Shown here: in pieces, positions 35,111 through 48,767 of the stretch | How positions within the stretch are numbered: the stretch's first letter is position 1 | How the letters are laid out: each line of letters begins with the position of its first letter | DNA from: a bacterium | GTDB taxonomy: Bacteria > Acidobacteriota > Thermoanaerobaculia > Multivoradales > JAHEKO01 | Direction: 5' to 3' | DNA length: 58,089 nucleotides | NCBI GenBank assembly: GCA_024224155.1 | Contig: JAAENP010000249.1 | Location: 1 to 58,089, forward strand | Translations under genes and position numbers: made by a program | Notes under the pieces: model-generated | The model's database searches: none | Told to the model about the DNA's origin: nothing | What the model saw: the letters and a program-made list of their open reading frames with translations, nothing else

Positions 35111-35186
35111 GCCCAGGTAGCTCAGTCGGTAGAGCACCTGACTGAAAATCAGGGTGTCGGTGGTTCGATTCCGCCCCTGGGCACCA
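35111..35186 (+). tRNA. tRNA-Phe (GAA anticodon)
   Basis: Full cloverleaf of 76 bases with acceptor GCCCAGG/CCTGGGC, discriminator A and encoded CCA. The anticodon stem CCTGA/TCAGG encloses CTGAAAA. Its 3' 48 bases are repeated exactly at 43686-43733, marking it as the integration site of the element to its right. Confidence 0.97.
35139..35186 (+). repeat. Left attachment repeat (attL), within tRNA-Phe
   Basis: 48 bases from the T of the anticodon stem to CCA, identical over the full length to 43686-43733. The copy to the left completes a functional tRNA, as is normal for site-specific integration into a tRNA gene. Confidence 0.9.
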
Positions 35187-35496
35187 GTTGAGTCTCTTAC
35201 TCTCAACAGTTTGCAGCTCGCACCGAGCAGACCTTGTTCATCCTCGAAAGAGGGTGAGCAAACAATGAGCAAACACTCTGTGTTGTGGTCCGTCGCAGCA
35301 TGTCGTAGATCGCTCGCTCGAAAGCGACCAGCATCGGAAGAGGAGCGGGGCCGAACGCCCTGCGGCCACGCGAGTCAGCGACCCGAGCCACGCACCGCTG
35401 AGGCCCTCCGCTCCCGAGGGCCGTCTGCAGCTGGTCAGCAGCTTCAACGATCCTAGTCGGTAAGATGCAGCGTCACCTGCGAAAGCGTGCCTTCCG
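35187..35496. other. Gene-free left flank of the element
   Basis: This 310-base stretch follows the tRNA. It contains GAGCAAACAATGAGCAAACA, two copies of GAGCAAAC within 20 bases, and otherwise nothing I can assign. No integrase gene is here. Confidence 0.6.
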
Positions 35497-35865
35497 ATGA
35501 TCGGTACCACTGTCTCCCACTACAAGATCCTCGAGAAGCTCGGGGGTGGTGGCATGGGCGTCGTCTGCCGGGCCGAGGATCTGATCCTGGGTCGGCACGT
35601 GGCGCTGAAGTTCCTGCCGGACGCGCTGGCCGAAGACCCGGAGGCCCTGGCGCGATTCCGGCGCGAGGCGCGGGCGGCCTCGGCCTTGAACCATCCCCAC
35701 ATCTGCACGATCCACGAGCTGGGGGAAGACGAAGGCCGCCCGTTCATCGTCATGGAGTTGATGGACGATCAGACCTTGAAGTACCGCATCAGCGGCCAGC
35801 TGTATCGGCTCAAGAAGCGCCGGAAGTCTCCGTCGGCGTTGGCTAGCCTCACCGTTGAACCTTGA
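35497..35865 (+). pseudogene. Truncated Ser/Thr protein kinase (N-lobe only)
   Basis: The frame starts with [20 protein letters not shown], whose glycine-rich loop is typical of acidobacterial-style kinases, then [10 protein letters not shown] (ATP-binding Lys), a conserved helix Glu and [20 protein letters not shown]. Homology stops around residue 97 (about base 35790) and the tail is unrelated. The HRD and DFG catalytic motifs are missing, so it cannot be an active kinase. Confidence 0.85.
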
Positions 35866-36068
35866 TTGTCGGCCCACGAGGTGGCAGTAAACAGGTGTAT
35901 CGCGTCCTTGACCCGAAACTTGATGCCGTAGTCTCGCGTGGCCAGGGTAACCAGTACTACAGCGTGTTCACCGGCTTTCGCGGGAGTGGGAATGACTTCG
36001 ATCTCTCCAGAAGCGATGAGTCCCATGATGGCGGCCGTTGATCGTTCGACCCAAGCCTGATTGAACAC
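35769..36068 (-). pseudogene. PIN-domain (VapC-like) fragment
   Basis: The frame contains GIKFRVKDAIHLFTATSWAD and later DGDFRRFL, resembling the central and C-terminal parts of PIN-domain nucleases (DAIHLATA ... D.DF). The last residues are antisense to the kinase fragment and probably not native, so the junction lies near 35800. The N-terminal Asp motif is not evident. A truncated toxin remnant is the likely reading, with modest confidence. Confidence 0.55.
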
Positions 36069-36102
36069 CGCCGGTTCCCTGCGCAGGCGACCGCGTGGAC
36101 CC

Positions 36103-36696
36103 CTAATACCTCACTAGAGAGCTACCACGCGCCCAACGCAGCCCGCTTCGCCGCCAGCGGCCTCCACCCCAGAAAACCGAATTCCTACTCCGCTTGTCCT
36201 GTCGCTTCGCTCGAATACCGCATACGACGTCGCAGTCCTCCAGTTGGTCGAGGAGGCGCGGAATATCGTCGGGGTCGTTTTGAAGGTTGGCGTCGAGTGT
36301 GATCACGACCGGCGCGCGGATTCGCTCAAAAGCCGTGGCAAGCGCAGCGGATTGTCCCAGATTCCGCTCGTGTCGGATGACCCGGACGTAGTCGTTGGCG
36401 GCGGCGAGCCGGTCCATGACGCCTGGTGAGGCGTCCGTCGAGGCGTCGTCGACGAGCAGAATCTCGTAGGTCAAAGATGCCGGTGAGAGCGCCTTGCGTA
36501 TCTCGGAAACGAGAATCGGAAGGTTCTCGGCTTCGTTGTAGGCCGGCACCACGATCGAGACCGGTCCGACACCAGAATCCGAACATCCGTCGCCTCCGAT
36601 CCTAGAAGATTTAGACGGGCGTAGGAATGGCCCCTCCCTGGTCGATCCCGTTGGGTCCGAGGCTAACACTCCGCCACGCCGGCTACGGGTCGGCAA
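36103..36696 (-). pseudogene. Truncated family-2 glycosyltransferase
   Basis: VSIVVPAYNEAENLPILVSE, LVDDASTDASP and ITLDANLQNDPDDIP are the N-terminal hallmarks of dolichol-phosphate-mannose-synthase-like GT2 enzymes. Similarity ends after CDVVCGIRAKRQDK and the remaining 27 residues are unrelated, so the acceptor half and membrane anchors are gone. The reported start is a TTG; no better start is clear. Confidence 0.85.
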
Positions 36697-36886
36697 CCCC
36701 GATCGCCGTTACCGGCCGGACGGCCTCCGGGGCGCGGGCCTCTAGCGGGAGCTCTGAATCCCCGGCGTCATGACCGTCAGGCCGAGCGTCGCGGTGCAGG
36801 GGCTTGGGCTCTTGGTCCGGGAGCGTGATCTGCTCTCCCGCGGATGACTCAGGCTTCTGTGCATGTACCATGCGCTCTCGAAGACG

Positions 36887-39800
36887 ATGAAGTTCCCGCA
36901 CCTCACGACGTTCGCCCTCTGTGGGGCTTACCTGGCACTCGCCGGCTGCACCTGCGGCAAAGAGCAGCAGGCTTCCGAGCGCTCCGGCTCCGAAGCCCCC
37001 CGGGCAGCTGGATCCAGCCAACCGCCCACCATCTCCGCTCTTCCCGCGCTACAGTCGCCGGATCTCGACGCCGAGCGGGCTCTCGAGCTCTTCCAATCGA
37101 TCGGCACTGATGAACCGCCGCTCGAGATCCCACCGCCGATCGAGGATCTCTCGGGCGCCATCGTAGAGGTCGAGCCGAACGATAGTAAGAAAGACGCCAC
37201 CCCGATGGGAACCGCCCGGCTGGCCCGAGGAACTACCGAGAAGAACTACGACTACTTTCAGTTCGAGGTCGAGGGTACGGCGCAGCGCTGGTTGATCGAA
37301 GTTCGTGGCCCAAGCGTTAGTCGCGCCGAGTACAGTGACTCGGGCGGCAACAAGCACCGCCTCGGCACGGTCAAGGGGGAAGAGGGAGTCCAGGTCACGG
37401 CGAACTTGGTGCTCCAGCCCGGCGCGCATTACCTGTACGTCTATGGCGGCGAAGGCGGCGACTACACGATTCGCCTTTTCGAGATCGGCAGCGCCGCCGA
37501 AAGCGATGATCGTGAGCCAAACAACGATGCAACCCGCGCGGCGCCGCTTCGAGCGGAAACTTCTGCCTCGGGCATCCTCTATCCCACCGGCGACATCGAC
37601 TTCTACCGCTTCTCGACCTTCGCCGAGACGACGGTTCGGATCCACGTTCAGACGCCGCCCGACCTCAAGATATCCCTCGATCTTTCCGACGCCTACGGCA
37701 CCGGCTCGACTCGGTTGGTCAGGTGGTATGCCACTGAGCCGGGCCAGGACTTCGAAGATACCCGCTTGCTCTTGCCCGGTGATTATCTCCTTGCTCTCCG
37801 GGGGTCGGGCGTATCGAGCCGGTCACCCTACTCGGTTCGTTATGAAGTGCTCGACCAGACCGAGACGGCGCGTCGAATCGTGGACCTCGAACCCAATGAC
37901 GATGTCCATGGCGCCGGTCGGTTGCCCAACGACCGAGTCCTGGTCGGGACATTGGCCGGAAGCGATGACTATTACCACCTGCCCCGAGTAGCCGTTGACA
38001 CGAAGCTCGTCATCTCGGGCCCGGTTGAAGACTCACCGACTGCCCCAATCGCTCCTACCGCCGATGACGCCAAGCCCGACCCACCCTCGAGAAGAGTCCC
38101 GAAAGACATCCGGCTCTATCCGCAGGCGGGCGAAAAGCAGAACGTGAGGCCTAAGCTGAGCGCGGAAACCGGCCGTCTCGAGGTCGACCTCCCGGCGAGC
38201 TCCGTCCCGATCCTGCAGCTACGAGGGAGTGGCGCCTACCACCTAGAGCTCGATTTCGATCCGCCGCTCGAGGGTCTGAAAGCCGCCGAAGTCTCCTCGG
38301 TCGACATCCGGCTCTCCGCCGCGAATCGCCGGTTTGCCGCGTTCATCGACCGCTTTCAGAAGACTCAATTGCAGGCGGCTCTGGCCAATCGCGGCGAACG
38401 GCGGATCGACGTTGAGTTGGCAGTTACCTCCGATCACTACGCCTGGGTCCCTGACCTGGATGCCACGAGCCTCAGTCTTGCACCGGGCGAGACCCGGGTC
38501 GTCGAGGGCACGCTCGAAGTCGCGCCCGACGCCTGGTCGACGCAGCCTGCCAGATTGAGCCTCGAGGCGGAGATCGGCGACGAATCTCTCGGCCGCCACT
38601 CTGTGCGCGTCTTTGCGGAGTGCGGTGCGCCACCTGTCGGCTCTTCCGACAAGGGCCTCCTGCCGCCCGCTCTCGCCGGCGGCTTCAACGCGGCGGTCCA
38701 GACCTTCGGCGGACGCGTTCTGGTCGAAGATGAGCGCGCTCGACGTCAGGTCGCCGCCATCAACGACGGCTTTACCTACATCGACGGGGGTCCGTTCTTT
38801 CCGATCAAGGATGGAATCGGAACGTTGATTGTCGAGCTTGCCGGCTCGGAGCCGGTGCCGGTCGCCGGTGTTCTTTTGAACCCTCTGAGCAAGCGTCAAG
38901 GTTTCGAGTGGATCCGAGACTTCGACCTTCTCCTGTCCGAAGACGGTGTGCTCTTCACCGAGGCGGTGTCGGGGACGTTGGCTCGCTTGCCCATCGAGCA
39001 AGCCTTCCCGCTCACCTCTCCAGTACCGGCCCGCTTCGCTCAGCTGCGCGTGCGTTCGACCCACGGCAAGGCCACCCGGGCCACTCTCGGCGAGCTCAAG
39101 ATCGTCGCCGCACCCGAGTGGGACCCAGCGGACGGAGCCGCCTTGAATCTCTCCGACCCGGAGCTCGGCGGCCACATCGTGCGTTGGAACTGGCTCGTCC
39201 ACTACAACTATGTCAGCGGGATGCTGACCGAAGAACCCGACGCCAACAAAGTTCGGGTGGATCCGGACCTTCCGACCGAGTGGGTCGTCGGTTTCCATCA
39301 CAACCGGGCAGCTCAAATCGAGCGGCTCGAATGGGTCGAGAAGAAGACGCCTCTGTATCGGGCCTTCGACCGCGTGCTGGTCGCGGTGAGCACCGAGAGT
39401 CCACTGGGACCCTGGCAGGCGATCGGCAGCTGGGACCTCACGGACGATCGGGCGACGCCACGAGCCTGGGAACTCGACCAGCCGGTCTGGGCGCGGTTCG
39501 TCAAGTTTTCGAGCCCCGACGCGCAGAAGGCCGAGACCTGGGATCTGCCCGAGAGCATTCGCATCTGGGAGCGCCCGAGCAGCGCCGACTACCGGTCGAT
39601 TCTCACCGAATGGGGCCACTACTCGGCCAGCGCTTTCTACGAGACGACGCTCGAGAGGCCCTCTCCAGTCGTCGTCGGCGACGACGACAACGACACGCGC
39701 GAATCGGCCGACCGGCTGCCGATCGATCAAACCGTCGGCGGTGTCGTGACCCTCGGTGAGGATGAGGATTGGTATCGCATCGAGATTTCTCGAGATGCCA

Positions 39801-41329
39801 ACACCCTCGACCTCGAGATCGCGGGTGACCCGCGCCTCAAGGCCGTAGTCGAGTTCACCGACGAAGGCGGCAATTCGCTGAGTTGGGACGAAGAGACAGT
39901 GCTCGCCGATTCGGCGCGGATGTCGGCGATCCTCGGTCCCGACCGGACGATCTACGCCCGCGTCTTCGAGCCACCCCGGTCGATTGCCTTTGCCTGGGAC
40001 AACAGTGGCAGCGTCGGCCCCTACCGCAACACCATCTACCAGGCGATGGCGCGGTTTTCGAGTCAAGTGAAGCCGCGGCTCGAGTTCGCCAATCTCCACC
40101 CCTTCGGCGGAACTCTGCTCCTCGACGACTGGAGCGACCGATCGGACGAGCTCCAGTACGCGGCTCAAAACTACGATCGGCGCGACAGCTCGAGCTCGGC
40201 CGAACCGGCACTGGCTCTCGTGTCGGACGAGCTCGCGGAGCGCCAGGGGACGCGGGCCGTCGTCTTTCTGACCGATGCCGTGTCTCCGACCAGCGTAGTC
40301 AATGCCGAGCTGTGGTCGAGCCTGGAGCGGTCAAAGCCCCACGTCTTCACGCTGCATCTTCACACGGCCGGCAGCGACGCCCCCTATAACCAGGACCGCA
40401 TGCAGGACTGGGCGGTTGCCAATGGCGGGCGCTACGAATACTTCCGAACGCAGGGCGAACTCGACGCCGGTTTCCAGCGCGCCGCCTGTCACCTTCGGCG
40501 GCCGGCCCGCTATCAGATCACTGCCCGCACCCGCTTCGAAGAGCCCCCCGGACCTGGGTTCGTGGCCGTCGAGGCGCCTCAAGCGCGGGCCGACCACGCG
40601 GTCGAGCTGGTCCTGGACGCCTCGGGCAGCATGCTAAAGCGGATCGCCGGCAAGACCCGCATCGCGATTGCCCGAGACGTCTTGACCTCCCTCGTCAACG
40701 AGACGATTCCCGAGGGAACACCTCTCGCACTCCGCGTCTTCGGGCACCGGAAACCGGAAGCCTGCGATACCGAATTGGTGGCACCCTTGGCGCCGCTCGA
40801 GCGCGATCGAATCGTCGGCATCGTCCGGCGCACCGAGGCCAAGAACCTCGCCAAGACACCGATCGGTGCATCGCTAGCGTTGGTCGCCCAAGACCTCGCC
40901 GGCGCCGACGGCCCGAAGCTCGTCATCTTGATCACCGATGGGGAAGAGACCTGCGGCGGGGATCCGGCAGGAGCCATCAGAGAGCTAAAGCAGGCCGGCA
41001 TCGAAGCTCGTCTCAGTGTCGTCGGATTCGCTATCGACGACGCGGCACTAAAAGCCGAGTTCGAGTCCTGGGCCCGCGTGGGCGGTGGTCTTTACTTCGA
41101 CACCGCGGACGAGAACGAGCTACGCGAAGCTCTGGACGCTGCGATGAAGCCGAAGTTCCAGGTTCTGGATTCGGCCGGCGAGATCGTCGCCGAGGGTACC
41201 GCCGGCGGCGATCCGGTCGAAGTTCCGATGGGGCTCTATCGAGTGAAGGTCCTGACCAGCCCGGCGCGGGTCGTCGACGACGTCCGGGTCGAGGCGGAGA
41301 AGACGGTGACGGTGATGCCGGCTCAGTGA
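36887..41329 (+). CDS. Large lipoprotein with PPC-like domains and two VWA domains
   Basis: About 1,480 residues from the ATG at 36887 (another in-frame ATG lies at 36863). A lipoprotein signal ends in LALAGC (Cys21). Next come three PPC-like repeats starting VEVEPNDSKKD, REPNNDA and DLEPNDD, a long beta-rich middle with discoidin-like segments, a fourth PPC-like unit (DDNDTRESADRLPI), then two VWA domains with MIDAS motifs DNSGS (about residue 1038) and DASGS (about 1244). LVILITDGEETCGGDP fits the second. It is probably anchored in the envelope facing out or into the periplasm. The next gene starts 27 bases later, so the two likely form a cargo operon. Function unknown. Confidence 0.85.
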   Translation: MKFPHLTTFALCGAYLALAGCTCGKEQQASERSGSEAPRAAGSSQPPTISALPALQSPDLDAERALELFQSIGTDEPPLEIPPPIEDLSGAIVEVEPNDSKKDATPMGTARLARGTTEKNYDYFQFEVEGTAQRWLIEVRGPSVSRAEYSDSGGNKHRLGTVKGEEGVQVTANLVLQPGAHYLYVYGGEGGDYTIRLFEIGSAAESDDREPNNDATRAAPLRAETSASGILYPTGDIDFYRFSTFAETTVRIHVQTPPDLKISLDLSDAYGTGSTRLVRWYATEPGQDFEDTRLLLPGDYLLALRGSGVSSRSPYSVRYEVLDQTETARRIVDLEPNDDVHGAGRLPNDRVLVGTLAGSDDYYHLPRVAVDTKLVISGPVEDSPTAPIAPTADDAKPDPPSRRVPKDIRLYPQAGEKQNVRPKLSAETGRLEVDLPASSVPILQLRGSGAYHLELDFDPPLEGLKAAEVSSVDIRLSAANRRFAAFIDRFQKTQLQAALANRGERRIDVELAVTSDHYAWVPDLDATSLSLAPGETRVVEGTLEVAPDAWSTQPARLSLEAEIGDESLGRHSVRVFAECGAPPVGSSDKGLLPPALAGGFNAAVQTFGGRVLVEDERARRQVAAINDGFTYIDGGPFFPIKDGIGTLIVELAGSEPVPVAGVLLNPLSKRQGFEWIRDFDLLLSEDGVLFTEAVSGTLARLPIEQAFPLTSPVPARFAQLRVRSTHGKATRATLGELKIVAAPEWDPADGAALNLSDPELGGHIVRWNWLVHYNYVSGMLTEEPDANKVRVDPDLPTEWVVGFHHNRAAQIERLEWVEKKTPLYRAFDRVLVAVSTESPLGPWQAIGSWDLTDDRATPRAWELDQPVWARFVKFSSPDAQKAETWDLPESIRIWERPSSADYRSILTEWGHYSASAFYETTLERPSPVVVGDDDNDTRESADRLPIDQTVGGVVTLGEDEDWYRIEISRDANTLDLEIAGDPRLKAVVEFTDEGGNSLSWDEETVLADSARMSAILGPDRTIYARVFEPPRSIAFAWDNSGSVGPYRNTIYQAMARFSSQVKPRLEFANLHPFGGTLLLDDWSDRSDELQYAAQNYDRRDSSSSAEPALALVSDELAERQGTRAVVFLTDAVSPTSVVNAELWSSLERSKPHVFTLHLHTAGSDAPYNQDRMQDWAVANGGRYEYFRTQGELDAGFQRAACHLRRPARYQITARTRFEEPPGPGFVAVEAPQARADHAVELVLDASGSMLKRIAGKTRIAIARDVLTSLVNETIPEGTPLALRVFGHRKPEACDTELVAPLAPLERDRIVGIVRRTEAKNLAKTPIGASLALVAQDLAGADGPKLVILITDGEETCGGDPAGAIRELKQAGIEARLSVVGFAIDDAALKAEFESWARVGGGLYFDTADENELREALDAAMKPKFQVLDSAGEIVAEGTAGGDPVEVPMGLYRVKVLTSPARVVDDVRVEAEKTVTVMPAQ

Positions 41330-41356
41330 CCGGGAAAGCGAACCAGTGGAGGAAAC

Positions 41357-42751
41357 ATGAATTCTCGAGTGCTCTTCAGCTTGATCGTAGTGACGGCTCT
41401 TGCCGCACCTTCCTACAGCGAAGCCTCTTGCAGCAGTATCCGACTCTTGAAAGGCGGTATGGACCGTGTGGAGCTCGATCTATTGAAGATCTTCGATCTG
41501 GTCGACCCGGGGCCGAACCAGCAGAAGATCGTCGCCGACGCCATGGGCTATTTCGCGCCGCTCCATTGTCATGCGGTGACTCGGATCGCGTTTCAGGACC
41601 TAGATGGTTCGGAGGGACAGACGATGGCCTGGGTGGGATCGGCCAAGCCAGACCTGCTCAACATCGTGGCAACCAGCTCCAAGGCGAGTGAGAAGAACCT
41701 TAGCTTGAGAAGAGAGGGACCAGCGTACCGCGCGGGCGCCGTCAGTTCGATCACCCACGAGGCGTCACACGCCGCACACCATCTACTGAAATTCGTTGCT
41801 CCGCGAGCCGAGTGGAAACTCGGGGAAAGAGCGCTTATGAGACAGGATTGGTCTCCTGAGGCACTTGCGTACGCCGAAGATCTCGTCGAGAAGAATGTCC
41901 TCGACAGAGGGTTGCTGCCCGAATGGCAGGACCTGCACCAGCGTGCCGTCGACCTCGGTGAGAACAACGATTACCACGGTAGCGGAGATCCGAAAATGAC
42001 CCCGGATCAGATCATCAAGATGGGAGTAGCATCGCCTTACGGGGGCGACGATGCGGCCGAGGACATCGCCGAGATGTCGTCGGGAATCATGGCGGTACGG
42101 GCGTGGTCCAATTACGGAGCAACGATTCCCACGCCGGCGGAAGACCTCATCTGCGAGCGGATGAGGGCCGCTCAAGGTCCTGGCGTCCCGAAGGAGCTGG
42201 CCCTCATCTACGCCAAGGTCGGGTTCCTTCACTCGGTGGGACTCATCGGCGACCTCGAGTACGACCACTGCGTCGGCGATCTCAAGGTTCGCGCGCCTGG
42301 GAACGGCTTCTTTTCACTCAAGAACGGGCAGCAGGTCAACGCATACACCTCGAACGTCGGGGGGACGATTGGTAAGCGCGAAGACGACGGCATGTGGGTC
42401 TTCCAGATGGAAGCCAAGGGGCAGTTTGGCACTGAGGGAAAGACAAAGCCGGGCCGGATCGAGTTGATCATCCCGCTCGCTCCTTCGGGTGAGCCCAGGC
42501 CGAGCTTCCCGCGCGGTCTCTATGGCGTCGGCGGCGGCGGTAGAGCGAGAACCACCGTTTACTACACGGACGAGGGGCAAGAGAAGGTCGGCGTGAGTGT
42601 CGAGAGCGGGTTGGTTCTGGTCTCCCGCGCCAGCACCCAGCTCGTCGAGGGGTCGATCTTCGTCTTTCGGCTCGTCAACTGGACGGAGCTCTTTCCGCTT
42701 CCGATACCTCCGAAGGAAGACACGATCTTCACGTTTCGCAAGAGGAAATGA
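41357..42751 (+). CDS. Exported protein with HExxH motif (putative zinc metallopeptidase)
   Basis: A 464-residue protein with a signal peptide (about residues 1-23) and a strong GGAGG ribosome binding site. SITHEASHAAHH holds an HExxH motif (134-138), and AAEDIAEMSS about 100 residues later provides a plausible third ligand (Glu in EDIAE), as in several zincin families. No known family was recognised, and the C-terminal half (residues about 300-464) is beta-rich. It is placed directly after the VWA lipoprotein, suggesting a partnership. Catalytic activity is inferred only. Confidence 0.7.
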   Translation: MNSRVLFSLIVVTALAAPSYSEASCSSIRLLKGGMDRVELDLLKIFDLVDPGPNQQKIVADAMGYFAPLHCHAVTRIAFQDLDGSEGQTMAWVGSAKPDLLNIVATSSKASEKNLSLRREGPAYRAGAVSSITHEASHAAHHLLKFVAPRAEWKLGERALMRQDWSPEALAYAEDLVEKNVLDRGLLPEWQDLHQRAVDLGENNDYHGSGDPKMTPDQIIKMGVASPYGGDDAAEDIAEMSSGIMAVRAWSNYGATIPTPAEDLICERMRAAQGPGVPKELALIYAKVGFLHSVGLIGDLEYDHCVGDLKVRAPGNGFFSLKNGQQVNAYTSNVGGTIGKREDDGMWVFQMEAKGQFGTEGKTKPGRIELIIPLAPSGEPRPSFPRGLYGVGGGGRARTTVYYTDEGQEKVGVSVESGLVLVSRASTQLVEGSIFVFRLVNWTELFPLPIPPKEDTIFTFRKRK

Positions 42752-42769
42752 GGCAACGGGAAGACCAAC

Positions 42770-43150
42770 TTAAACCGGGATCTGCCCGGCCAGGTCACCG
42801 CTCCGCAGGACGACCCAGCCGATCGCAAGTAGCCACAGGCTGTTGAGGTGAAACACCGGTGCGTAGTACTCGAGGTCGTCGGGTAGGGCCATGGTCATGG
42901 CGATCGCCGCGAGCCCCACGACCGCGCTGGTGATGGCGATCCGCGGCGGCAAGCCACCTCCGAGGCCACAGCCCGACAGCCAGTGCGATCTGGCCGAAGC
43001 CGAAGAAGACACGCCCGAAGCGTGTCAAGCAGGTCACGTATTCCGTGGTCACTTGCAGAGACTCGACGAATTCTCGGACCTGGTCGTCGGACTTCTCGGC
43101 CCTGTCGATCGCGCCCCAAATGCCGAAGTGGAGTAGAAGGCCTCCGCCAG
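42770..43150 (-). pseudogene. Frameshifted small membrane protein
   Basis: Two adjacent reading frames form one hydrophobic protein. The first reads VREFVESLQVTTEYVTCL ... VFFGFGQIALAVGLWP, and a shift near 42960 moves to GLPPRIAITSAVVGLAAIAM ... LWLLAIGWVVLRSGDLAGQ, ending at TAA. Three to four spans are implied. The N-terminus is lost at the junction with the RepA fragment. I do not recognise the family. Confidence 0.6.
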
Positions 43151-43158
43151 GGCGGCGA

Positions 43159-43452
43159 GAGTAGCCGTGGATAGCGGCCGTAGGGGAGTCCAAGAAGAGG
43201 GTGAGCGGTTACCGAGAGAATGAGGCGACCGTTCTGACGGAGAAAGGTGTCGGTGGTCGGCCGCGAGTGGGGGAGCGTCGTTTGCACGAGGACGCGAGCC
43301 ATAAAGCCGAGGGCACCTGCCCGTTGGGCCTCCTCAGCTTCGATCGCGAGGGACTCGCGGACGCGGCTGGACCGGGAGCACGTCGAAGCGCCAGCCCCGG
43401 TTACACTGGCGCCTGCGGCGCCGAAATCCGAAGGTCGAAGATCCCCGATCAC
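43159..43452 (-). pseudogene. Truncated plasmid-type RepA replication protein
   Basis: The frame contains ESLAIEAEEAQRAGALGFMA, RVLVQTTLPHSRPTTDTFL and GLPYGRYPRLL. This order (EAEEA-AGALGFMAR-LVQ-TLPH-GLPYG-PRLL) matches the N-terminal part of the RepA family of plasmid replication proteins as I know it. Similarity stops at PRLL near 43159, where the membrane-protein remnant begins, so most of the protein is missing. It is 230 bases from the right attachment repeat and supports a plasmid-like origin. Confidence 0.8.
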
Positions 43453-43616
43453 GACTCGCGAGTGGCCTCCATGCTGTTACTGAGCCGACCGCTTTCAAGC
43501 ACATGAACCGCAGCTCTGCTCTGGACGCCGTTTGCTGAGATCGAGCCCAAAGGCAAGGTCTCAGCGTTGGCGCGCCGGCTCCGGAACATCTCTGGAGCTC
43601 GACGCAAGTCAGGTGC

Positions 43617-43640
43617 GCTGGTACCTATTTGGTACCTAGC
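43617..43640. repeat. Imperfect palindrome near the right attachment repeat
   Basis: Two GGTACC copies separated by TATTT, flanked by GCT and TAGC, form an imperfect inverted repeat in an AT-rich patch (43620-43680) unlike its GC-rich surroundings. Such patches beside an att core often bind recombinase, but no protein or consensus supports this here. Confidence 0.5.
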
Positions 43641-43685
43641 AGAATTTAAGTTATTGGATAAGAAGGGGTTAGTGTCTTCTGAGGA

Positions 43686-43733
43686 TGACTGAAAATCAGG
43701 GTGTCGGTGGTTCGATTCCGCCCCTGGGCACCA
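43686..43733 (+). repeat. Right attachment repeat (attR), tRNA-Phe 3' end
   Basis: Exact 48-base copy of the 3' end of the tRNA-Phe gene at 35139-35186. The 5' half is absent, so it encodes no tRNA. Confidence 0.9.
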
Positions 43734-47507: not shown

Positions 47508-48767
47508 CTATGGCGGCGGCGGAACTAGTTGAAGATCGGGATCGATCGCGATTCTCAGTTGACCATCCATTGCGACCGACGTGCCGTTTCCGAGTGAGAC
47601 TCTCTTGCCGGCGCGGAGGGTCAGATTCCCGCCGCCTGCCACGGCGAAGTTGGGACCGACCAGGATGCGCTGACAGTTTTCCTCGGTCACGATGCCCATG
47701 ACCGTATCGTCACTCAGCGCAAGATCGGGACAGGGGATGAACTCGTAAGAGCCGATATCGCACGCATTTACTCTCGCCGCACCGCGTTGATCGTTGGGCG
47801 GACAGGCCGGCGCCGAGCCAACATCGATTGCGTTGCTGCCGTCGAGCAGCGCATGAGTCATCGTCGGACCACCGTTGTCGGAGAGACTCGGGTTGAGGCC
47901 GGTGAGGTTGCTTGGGATCGAGCCACAGGTCGTATCGTCGGCCAAGTTGCCGCCGTTGTCGGTCACCAGACCGGCGCAGTTGCTGCCACTGAGGCTCTGG
48001 CCGATGAGGCTATTGGTGAGCGTCGCGGCGGAACCGGCATAGAGGCCGCCACCGAAGCCAGCCGAGTTGCGCGCCAAGGTACTGTTTGTCAGGGTGGTAG
48101 TCGTACCGACGAAGCTGAACAAGCCGCCGCCGCCAAAGCCGGCTGCGTTCCGCGAGAGCGTGCTGTTGGTCACGTTAAGGGTCCCGTCGCCCGAGTTGTA
48201 GACGCCGCCACCGAAGCCGGCCGTGTTGCCCGATAGGGTAGTGTCGGTCAGGGTAACCGTGCCGCCACCTGAGTTGTAGATGCCGCCTCCGAGTACCGAG
48301 AGGTTGTCCGATAGGGTGCTGTTTGTCAGCAGCAATGTGCCGCCGTAGCTGTAGACGCCGCCGCCCTTGAGAACGCCGTCGGCAACACCGTTGCTCACAG
48401 TGGTCGTATCCAGGGCCAGGCTACCGCCTGCCGTGAGGTGGAAGATACGGAAGGGTGGTGCTCCTGCACTCCGCGCGATGAGGTGCCCGTTTCCCTGAAC
48501 CGTGACGTCGGAAGCGATCGACGGCAGACCGTTGGCCCCGCTGGTCGTGTTGTCGATGGCAGTGAGAGTTACGTCCTGCGTAAGGCTCAGAATGTCCGCC
48601 CCGACATCCCCCGACGGGCAAGAGCCGGTAGCGGCGTCGGTGTTGGCCGCCGTGATTGCGTCCACCAGAGTGCAGCTGCCGTCAACGATGATGATCGCTG
48701 GGGCGAGAGGCCGCGGCACCATGAGAAGTGTCGCCAGGACGACGCGGCCCGCCAGGGTAGACTTCAT
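47508..48767 (-). CDS. Exported parallel beta-helix protein with choice-of-anchor and C-terminal tail
   Basis: A 419-residue protein with a signal peptide, a weak CSLREA-like segment (SCTLVDAITAANTDA), a glycine/serine-rich beta-helix (residues about 135-250) in which NSTLS.N.AGFGGG-type rungs repeat, and a LLDGSNAIDVGSAP...GSYEF segment typical of choice-of-anchor Q proteins (about 308-343). The last 40 residues share the tail LRAGKRVSLGNG ... DG ... IDPDL with the exported protein ending at 50314. Such proteins are usually surface-attached or matrix components. Confidence 0.85.
   Translation of the reverse strand: MKSTLAGRVVLATLLMVPRPLAPAIIIVDGSCTLVDAITAANTDAATGSCPSGDVGADILSLTQDVTLTAIDNTTSGANGLPSIASDVTVQGNGHLIARSAGAPPFRIFHLTAGGSLALDTTTVSNGVADGVLKGGGVYSYGGTLLLTNSTLSDNLSVLGGGIYNSGGGTVTLTDTTLSGNTAGFGGGVYNSGDGTLNVTNSTLSRNAAGFGGGGLFSFVGTTTTLTNSTLARNSAGFGGGLYAGSAATLTNSLIGQSLSGSNCAGLVTDNGGNLADDTTCGSIPSNLTGLNPSLSDNGGPTMTHALLDGSNAIDVGSAPACPPNDQRGAARVNACDIGSYEFIPCPDLALSDDTVMGIVTEENCQRILVGPNFAVAGGGNLTLRAGKRVSLGNGTSVAMDGQLRIAIDPDLQLVPPPP

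Follow-up and report, generated by a model that had tools for sequence, protein, structure and literature searches.

Known systems that bear on the locus described here are the islands at tRNA genes that carry P4-type (Arm-DNA-bind_3) integrases, the mussel byssus protein PTMP1 (PDB 4cn8, 4cn9), and Peptidase_Mx1 (PF15890), PDB 4l7a and TIGR04549, the last of which is the substrate import-associated zinc metallohydrolase lipoprotein. Another, first delimited in this analysis, is a gene neighbourhood in which a VWA protein adjoins a transglutaminase-like protein; a literature search at the level of titles and abstracts returned no description of it, nor of the gene pair reported below. The window analysed here (the whole stretch of DNA, 58,089 nucleotides) resembles each of these in part. 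We consider it likely that it harbours a degraded tRNA-Phe island whose cargo, a VWA surface lipoprotein (gene 1) and a gluzincin-like peptidase (gene 2), forms one transcription unit as a one-off pairing. The boundaries of the element are as follows.

35111..35186, + strand: tRNA-Phe (gaa), the integration target (ARAGORN)
35139-35186, + strand: left boundary repeat, the 3' 48 bases of tRNA-Phe (direct repeat)
35257..35275, + strand: paired AGCAAACA repeats, arm-site-like, some 70 bp inward of the left boundary
43686..43733, + strand: right boundary, where the last 48 bases of tRNA-Phe recur without mismatch (direct repeat)

The two repeats are identical at 48 of 48 bases and lie 8,547 bp apart, so that the element is flanked by a tRNA gene and by a direct repeat of that gene's 3' end, as in a tRNA-site island. 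The element thus measures about 8.5 kb, and genes 1 and 2 take up 69% of the interval between the repeats. About 70 bp inward of the left boundary stands AGCAAACAATGAGCAAACA. The same paired motif, with identical spacing, accompanies 13 of the 21 tRNA-Phe 3'-end copies examined in the host and its relatives (the window copy counted), and it may represent integrase arm sites. The tRNA-Phe site is a repeated site of integration in relatives, and tyrosine integrases with a P4-type arm-binding domain are encoded on some of the relatives' contigs that bear such copies. A tblastn search of 35187-43685 with the integrases of three relatives gave no match, and we therefore class the element as an island remnant rather than a mobile island. 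It would have inserted into tRNA-Phe, presumably by means of a P4/arm-binding tyrosine integrase that has since been lost.

The alternative that the second tRNA-Phe copy arose by local duplication, and that the genes are ordinary chromosomal ones, draws on the missing integrase and on the chromosomal-type contents of the element. However, the perfection of the 48-bp repeat 8.5 kb away, the recurrence of the core together with the arm-like motif at numerous sites elsewhere in relatives, in some cases next to an integrase, and two same-genus genomes that possess neither gene 2 nor a full-length gene 1 make this reading very improbable. The element is real and degraded, and the kind of vehicle is ordinary.

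Copies of the tRNA-Phe 3' end outside tRNA genes were also seen several times per genome in the relatives and the host, including two that lie 3 kb apart on one host contig (G000:C186). These copies are often followed some 70 bp further on by AGCAAACA-N3-AGCAAACA and appear to mark the junctions of integrated elements, some of which are arranged in tandem. Elsewhere in the window, imperfect repeats about 78 bp apart occur at 48040-48365, inside a minus-strand ORF (47508-48767).

Loci noted with tRNA-Phe 3'-end copies: window 35139-35300; L098, L099, L100, L101, L104, L106, L108, L109, L122

Apart from the two cargo genes, the element holds only damaged ones.

35497..35865, + strand: truncated N-terminus of a Ser/Thr kinase, 122 aa (Pfam Pkinase, E 9e-12, 91/263 positions)
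36103..36696, - strand: glycosyltransferase family 2 fragment, C-terminal part missing (Pfam PF00535, E 1e-29)
42773..43130, - strand: frameshifted remnant of a 225-aa protein, by comparison with an intact relative

The kinase relatives are 495-902 aa long, against 122 aa in the window, and the gene at 42773-43130 is split across two frames relative to the intact 225-aa protein. The initial annotation had placed genes 1 and 2 inside an element as its only intact genes; both statements are borne out by these boundaries and by the kinase piece, the glycosyltransferase piece and the frameshifted gene. The decay of the neighbours may reflect selection on the pair, and a recent arrival would give the same picture; no close homologue usable for dN/dS was found for either gene.

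Gene 1 encodes a very large predicted lipoprotein.

36887..41329, + strand: gene 1, predicted lipoprotein, 1,480 aa, with PPC-like repeats, an Ig-like part, a discoidin-like part and two VWA domains
39998..40012, + strand: DNSGS, MIDAS motif of VWA 1, residues 1038-1042 (D, S and S invariant in 14 sequences)
40616..40630, + strand: DASGS, MIDAS motif of VWA 2, residues 1244-1248 (conserved together with T1324 and D1351)

Its ATG lies at 36887, with a longer start possible at 36863, and its N-terminus reads as a signal sequence ending in the lipobox LAGC. PPC-like EPND...DxDxY repeats begin near residues 94, 208 and 333, and a fourth DxDWY occurs near residue 959. The Pfam VWA model matches significantly at residues 1241-1415 (E 3e-11). 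DNSGS and DASGS are kept in 12-14 relatives; in VWA 1 the DNSGS and TDA motifs are conserved with Ser at the Thr position, while conservation of DASGS, T1324 and D1351 in VWA 2 was counted among the sequences covering that region. An AlphaFold model of residues 441-1480, built with 13 relatives, reached a pLDDT of 82, and in this model VWA 2 superimposes on solved VWA domains with Z about 22 and 1.9-2.5 Å over about 175 residues. Thus, both the fold and the metal-coordinating residues (DxSxS, T and D) expected of a MIDAS-type VWA domain are present. Foldseek matched the model to factor V/VIII and CBM32 (discoidin-type) proteins, in agreement with a Pfam F5/8C match (E 1.6e-9) in the host paralogue of gene 1. 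The best reading of these sequence and model data is that gene 1 encodes an adhesin-like surface lipoprotein, in which the VWA domains would bind a ligand in a metal-dependent manner and the discoidin-like domains would bind glycans or surfaces. Two other readings were rejected: PADLOC gave no match for either cargo protein as part of a defence system, and as to a phage origin, neither a significant PHROG family nor a viral homologue of the lipoprotein turned up.

The gene 1 family extends well outside the window. The host carries a second full-length copy on a separate contig (43% identical), full or contig-cut copies occur in three relatives (G012, G026 and G102), and a scan of GTDB contigs yielded 13 loci in MAGs or isolates, two of which (L034 and L032) coincide with the contigs G026:C188 and G102:C250. 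These 13 are labelled Chloroflexi, Thermoanaerobaculia, Alpha- and Gammaproteobacteria, Nitrospirota, Rhodothermales and Trueperaceae, labels that are mostly MAG-based and may include binning errors. A tblastn search of plasmids added one locus from Indioceanicola. In a tree built with a quick method, the window copy fell beside Thermoanaerobaculia copies with moderate support (88).

In 13 of the 16 other loci, a transglutaminase-like protein adjoins the gene 1 homologue (10 of the 13 GTDB-contig loci, the second host copy, G012 and the Indioceanicola plasmid), although the gene order varies: the transglutaminase-like gene mostly precedes the gene 1 homologue, follows it in L034, L035, L036 and L043, and is divergent in L040. 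Among the carriers of this neighbourhood are the cultured Mesorhizobium and Indioceanicola. Three loci in which no such gene was seen (L038, L041 and L042) lie on contigs that end near the gene 1 homologue.

VWA/transglutaminase-like loci: L022:7156-15910, L024, L031-L037, L039, L040, L043, L125:4234-12113

In 11 aligned partners, the place expected for the catalytic Cys, located by visual comparison with the usual GxC motif, is taken by Ser or Ala (motif GN[SA]), so that the transglutaminase-like protein, to judge from its sequence, probably lacks transglutaminase activity. Matches of these partners to Pfam Transglut_core are sub-threshold (E 0.004-0.015), and none of the curated families scanned names either the VWA lipoprotein or the transglutaminase-like protein as a whole. 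In the 58-kb window itself, a transglutaminase-like gene or remnant was sought by tblastn, and no match appeared.

The second cargo gene encodes an exported protein with a candidate zinc site.

41357..42751, + strand: gene 2, exported HExxH protein, 464 aa
41756..41770, + strand: HEASH, residues 134-138 (H134, E135 and H138 invariant in six relatives)
42059..42073, + strand: EDIAE, residues 235-239, holding a candidate third zinc ligand (E235 and D236 invariant)

Its N-terminus reads as a Sec-type signal sequence with no lipobox. HExxH, YG and the following ED are invariant across the six proteins of the family, as expected of a gluzincin-type zinc site, in which HExxH is joined by a downstream Glu ligand, here presumably E235. 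The similarity to the profiles of Peptidase_Mx1, TIGR04549 and PDB 4l7a falls in the EDIAE stretch. For gene 2, all Pfam and NCBIfam models stay below their cut-offs: Peptidase_Mx1 scores 11.9 bits against a curated cut-off of 25.6, and the best relative scores 20.9 and 19.4 bits against cut-offs of 25.6 and 75 for Peptidase_Mx1 and TIGR04549, respectively. A profile of the gene 2 family matches PDB 4l7a weakly (E 0.01), and a single-sequence model of gene 2 has a pLDDT of 33. We regard gene 2 as encoding a putative secreted gluzincin-like zinc peptidase, the proposed zinc site resting on conservation.

Gene 2 had looked like an orphan until a phylum-wide search found relatives. The family is present in six of 396 sampled phylum genomes, the host included; the relatives in the five other genomes share 21-30% identity with gene 2, and a search with their profile added none. 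Three of these relatives weakly resemble Peptidase_Mx1 or TIGR04549, none above cut-off. No relative was found in 149 class genomes, in plasmids, phages or IMG/VR viral contigs, or, with peptide patterns, in GTDB contigs, and a second phylum search, with a different genome at its centre, covered essentially the same sample and gave no further relatives. One of the phylum genomes, G220, has two HExxH-family genes. The first (L068:9043-13591) is preceded on its strand by the gene of a secreted double-VWA protein, and a 145-aa ORF separates the two; the second (L126:2-9699) is beside opposite-strand genes whose sequences suggest a secretion adaptor and a peptidase-containing ABC exporter.

A question raised by these findings is whether genes 1 and 2 form a unit. 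They share a strand and are separated by 27 bases, and gene 2 has a GGAGG just ahead of its ATG; a simple scan detected no promoter. The two genes are probably co-transcribed, most likely as a single transcription unit. The initial annotation described the locus accurately: the 27-base spacing, the signal sequences of both proteins, the lipoprotein nature of gene 1 with its PPC-like repeats and two MIDAS VWA domains at 1038 and 1244, and the HEASH at 134 and EDIAE at 235 of gene 2, invariant in its relatives, all stand at exact positions. Its further proposal, a candidate two-gene system, found no support as a unit that recurs, an outcome that the annotation itself had named as counting against it. 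Within the 149 class and 396 phylum genomes the pair occurs nowhere else, no gene 2 family member lies in the 19 gene 1-family loci searched, and no gene 1 family member lies in the five loci of gene 2 relatives examined, in samples sparse enough for both families that a rare co-occurrence could be missed. Nor did the pair recur at tRNA sites in relatives, as the annotation had suggested checking, though the tRNA-Phe site itself does recur there as a site of integration.

These distributions bear on how the pair came to be. A two-component surface system, in which the peptidase processes the VWA lipoprotein or the substrates it captures and the operon moves between genomes together, would account for the 27-bp spacing with a ribosome-binding site, the shared strand, the export of both proteins and their intactness amid decayed genes; the HExxH relative in G220, which has a secreted double-VWA protein of another kind encoded on its strand some 1.4 kb upstream, points the same way. 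However, that VWA protein is not of the gene 1 family, and VWA genes matching the gene 1 protein occur in 28 of 59 relatives, so we give the G220 proximity little weight. Together with the want of a second pair in the genomes named above or at any VWA-family locus, this leaves such a system rather unlikely, and joint action of the two proteins is possible but unsupported. Successive capture of unrelated cargo genes, adjacent by chance and intact through recent arrival rather than selection, would fit the separate and patchy distribution of the two families with their different neighbours, as well as their modest difference in GC3 (0.78 and 0.74). We hold this to be a serious, if somewhat doubtful, contender; the tight spacing and common orientation speak against it, as does a 1,480-codon frame still open next to fragments. 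The gene 1 family is normally beside the pseudo-transglutaminase, which the window does not have, and the pairing with gene 2 therefore looks one-off.

Within the preferred reading, that of a degraded island with a one-off gene pair as cargo, the lipoprotein would be anchored at the surface, and the secreted peptidase may trim the gene 1 protein or its ligand. A bolder version, in which an undescribed cross-phylum module has been re-wired so that the giant lipoprotein, whose usual partner is a dead transglutaminase-like protein, is here combined with a secreted gluzincin of a new zincin family, processing either the lipoprotein or the ligand it has captured, seems to us unlikely. The VWA/pseudo-transglutaminase module is the better lead when set against the gene 1/gene 2 pair. 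Two protein families that no curated model names came to light through the locus: that of the very large VWA surface lipoprotein and a sparse exported HExxH family. The lipoprotein, whose transglutaminase-like neighbour in several phyla has Ser or Ala for the catalytic Cys, amounts with it to a testable two-component surface system, and the island suggests that the binding component, the lipoprotein, can travel without its transglutaminase-like partner.

Compared with the known systems, the window shares with islands bearing P4-type integrases the tRNA 3'-end target, the perfect repeat and the arm-like repeats, but the integrase is absent from the window copy. With Peptidase_Mx1, TIGR04549 and PDB 4l7a, gene 2 and several of its relatives have a weak profile likeness near the HExxH and EDxAE-type motifs, whereas gene 2 stays below the cut-offs, has no lipobox and possesses an extra C-terminal beta-rich part. 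PTMP1 likewise has tandem VWA domains with MIDAS motifs, and it spans both VWA domains of the gene 1 model with Z about 20; the rmsd of 25 Å over the pair means that the relative placement differs and that only the individual domains agree. Furthermore, PTMP1 is a eukaryotic matrix protein, and the chain that matched does not extend beyond the VWA part. In the VWA/transglutaminase-like neighbourhood, the homologue has the domain order of gene 1 and is about 34-47% identical to it, but the window copy stands without the transglutaminase-like neighbour and has the HExxH gene.
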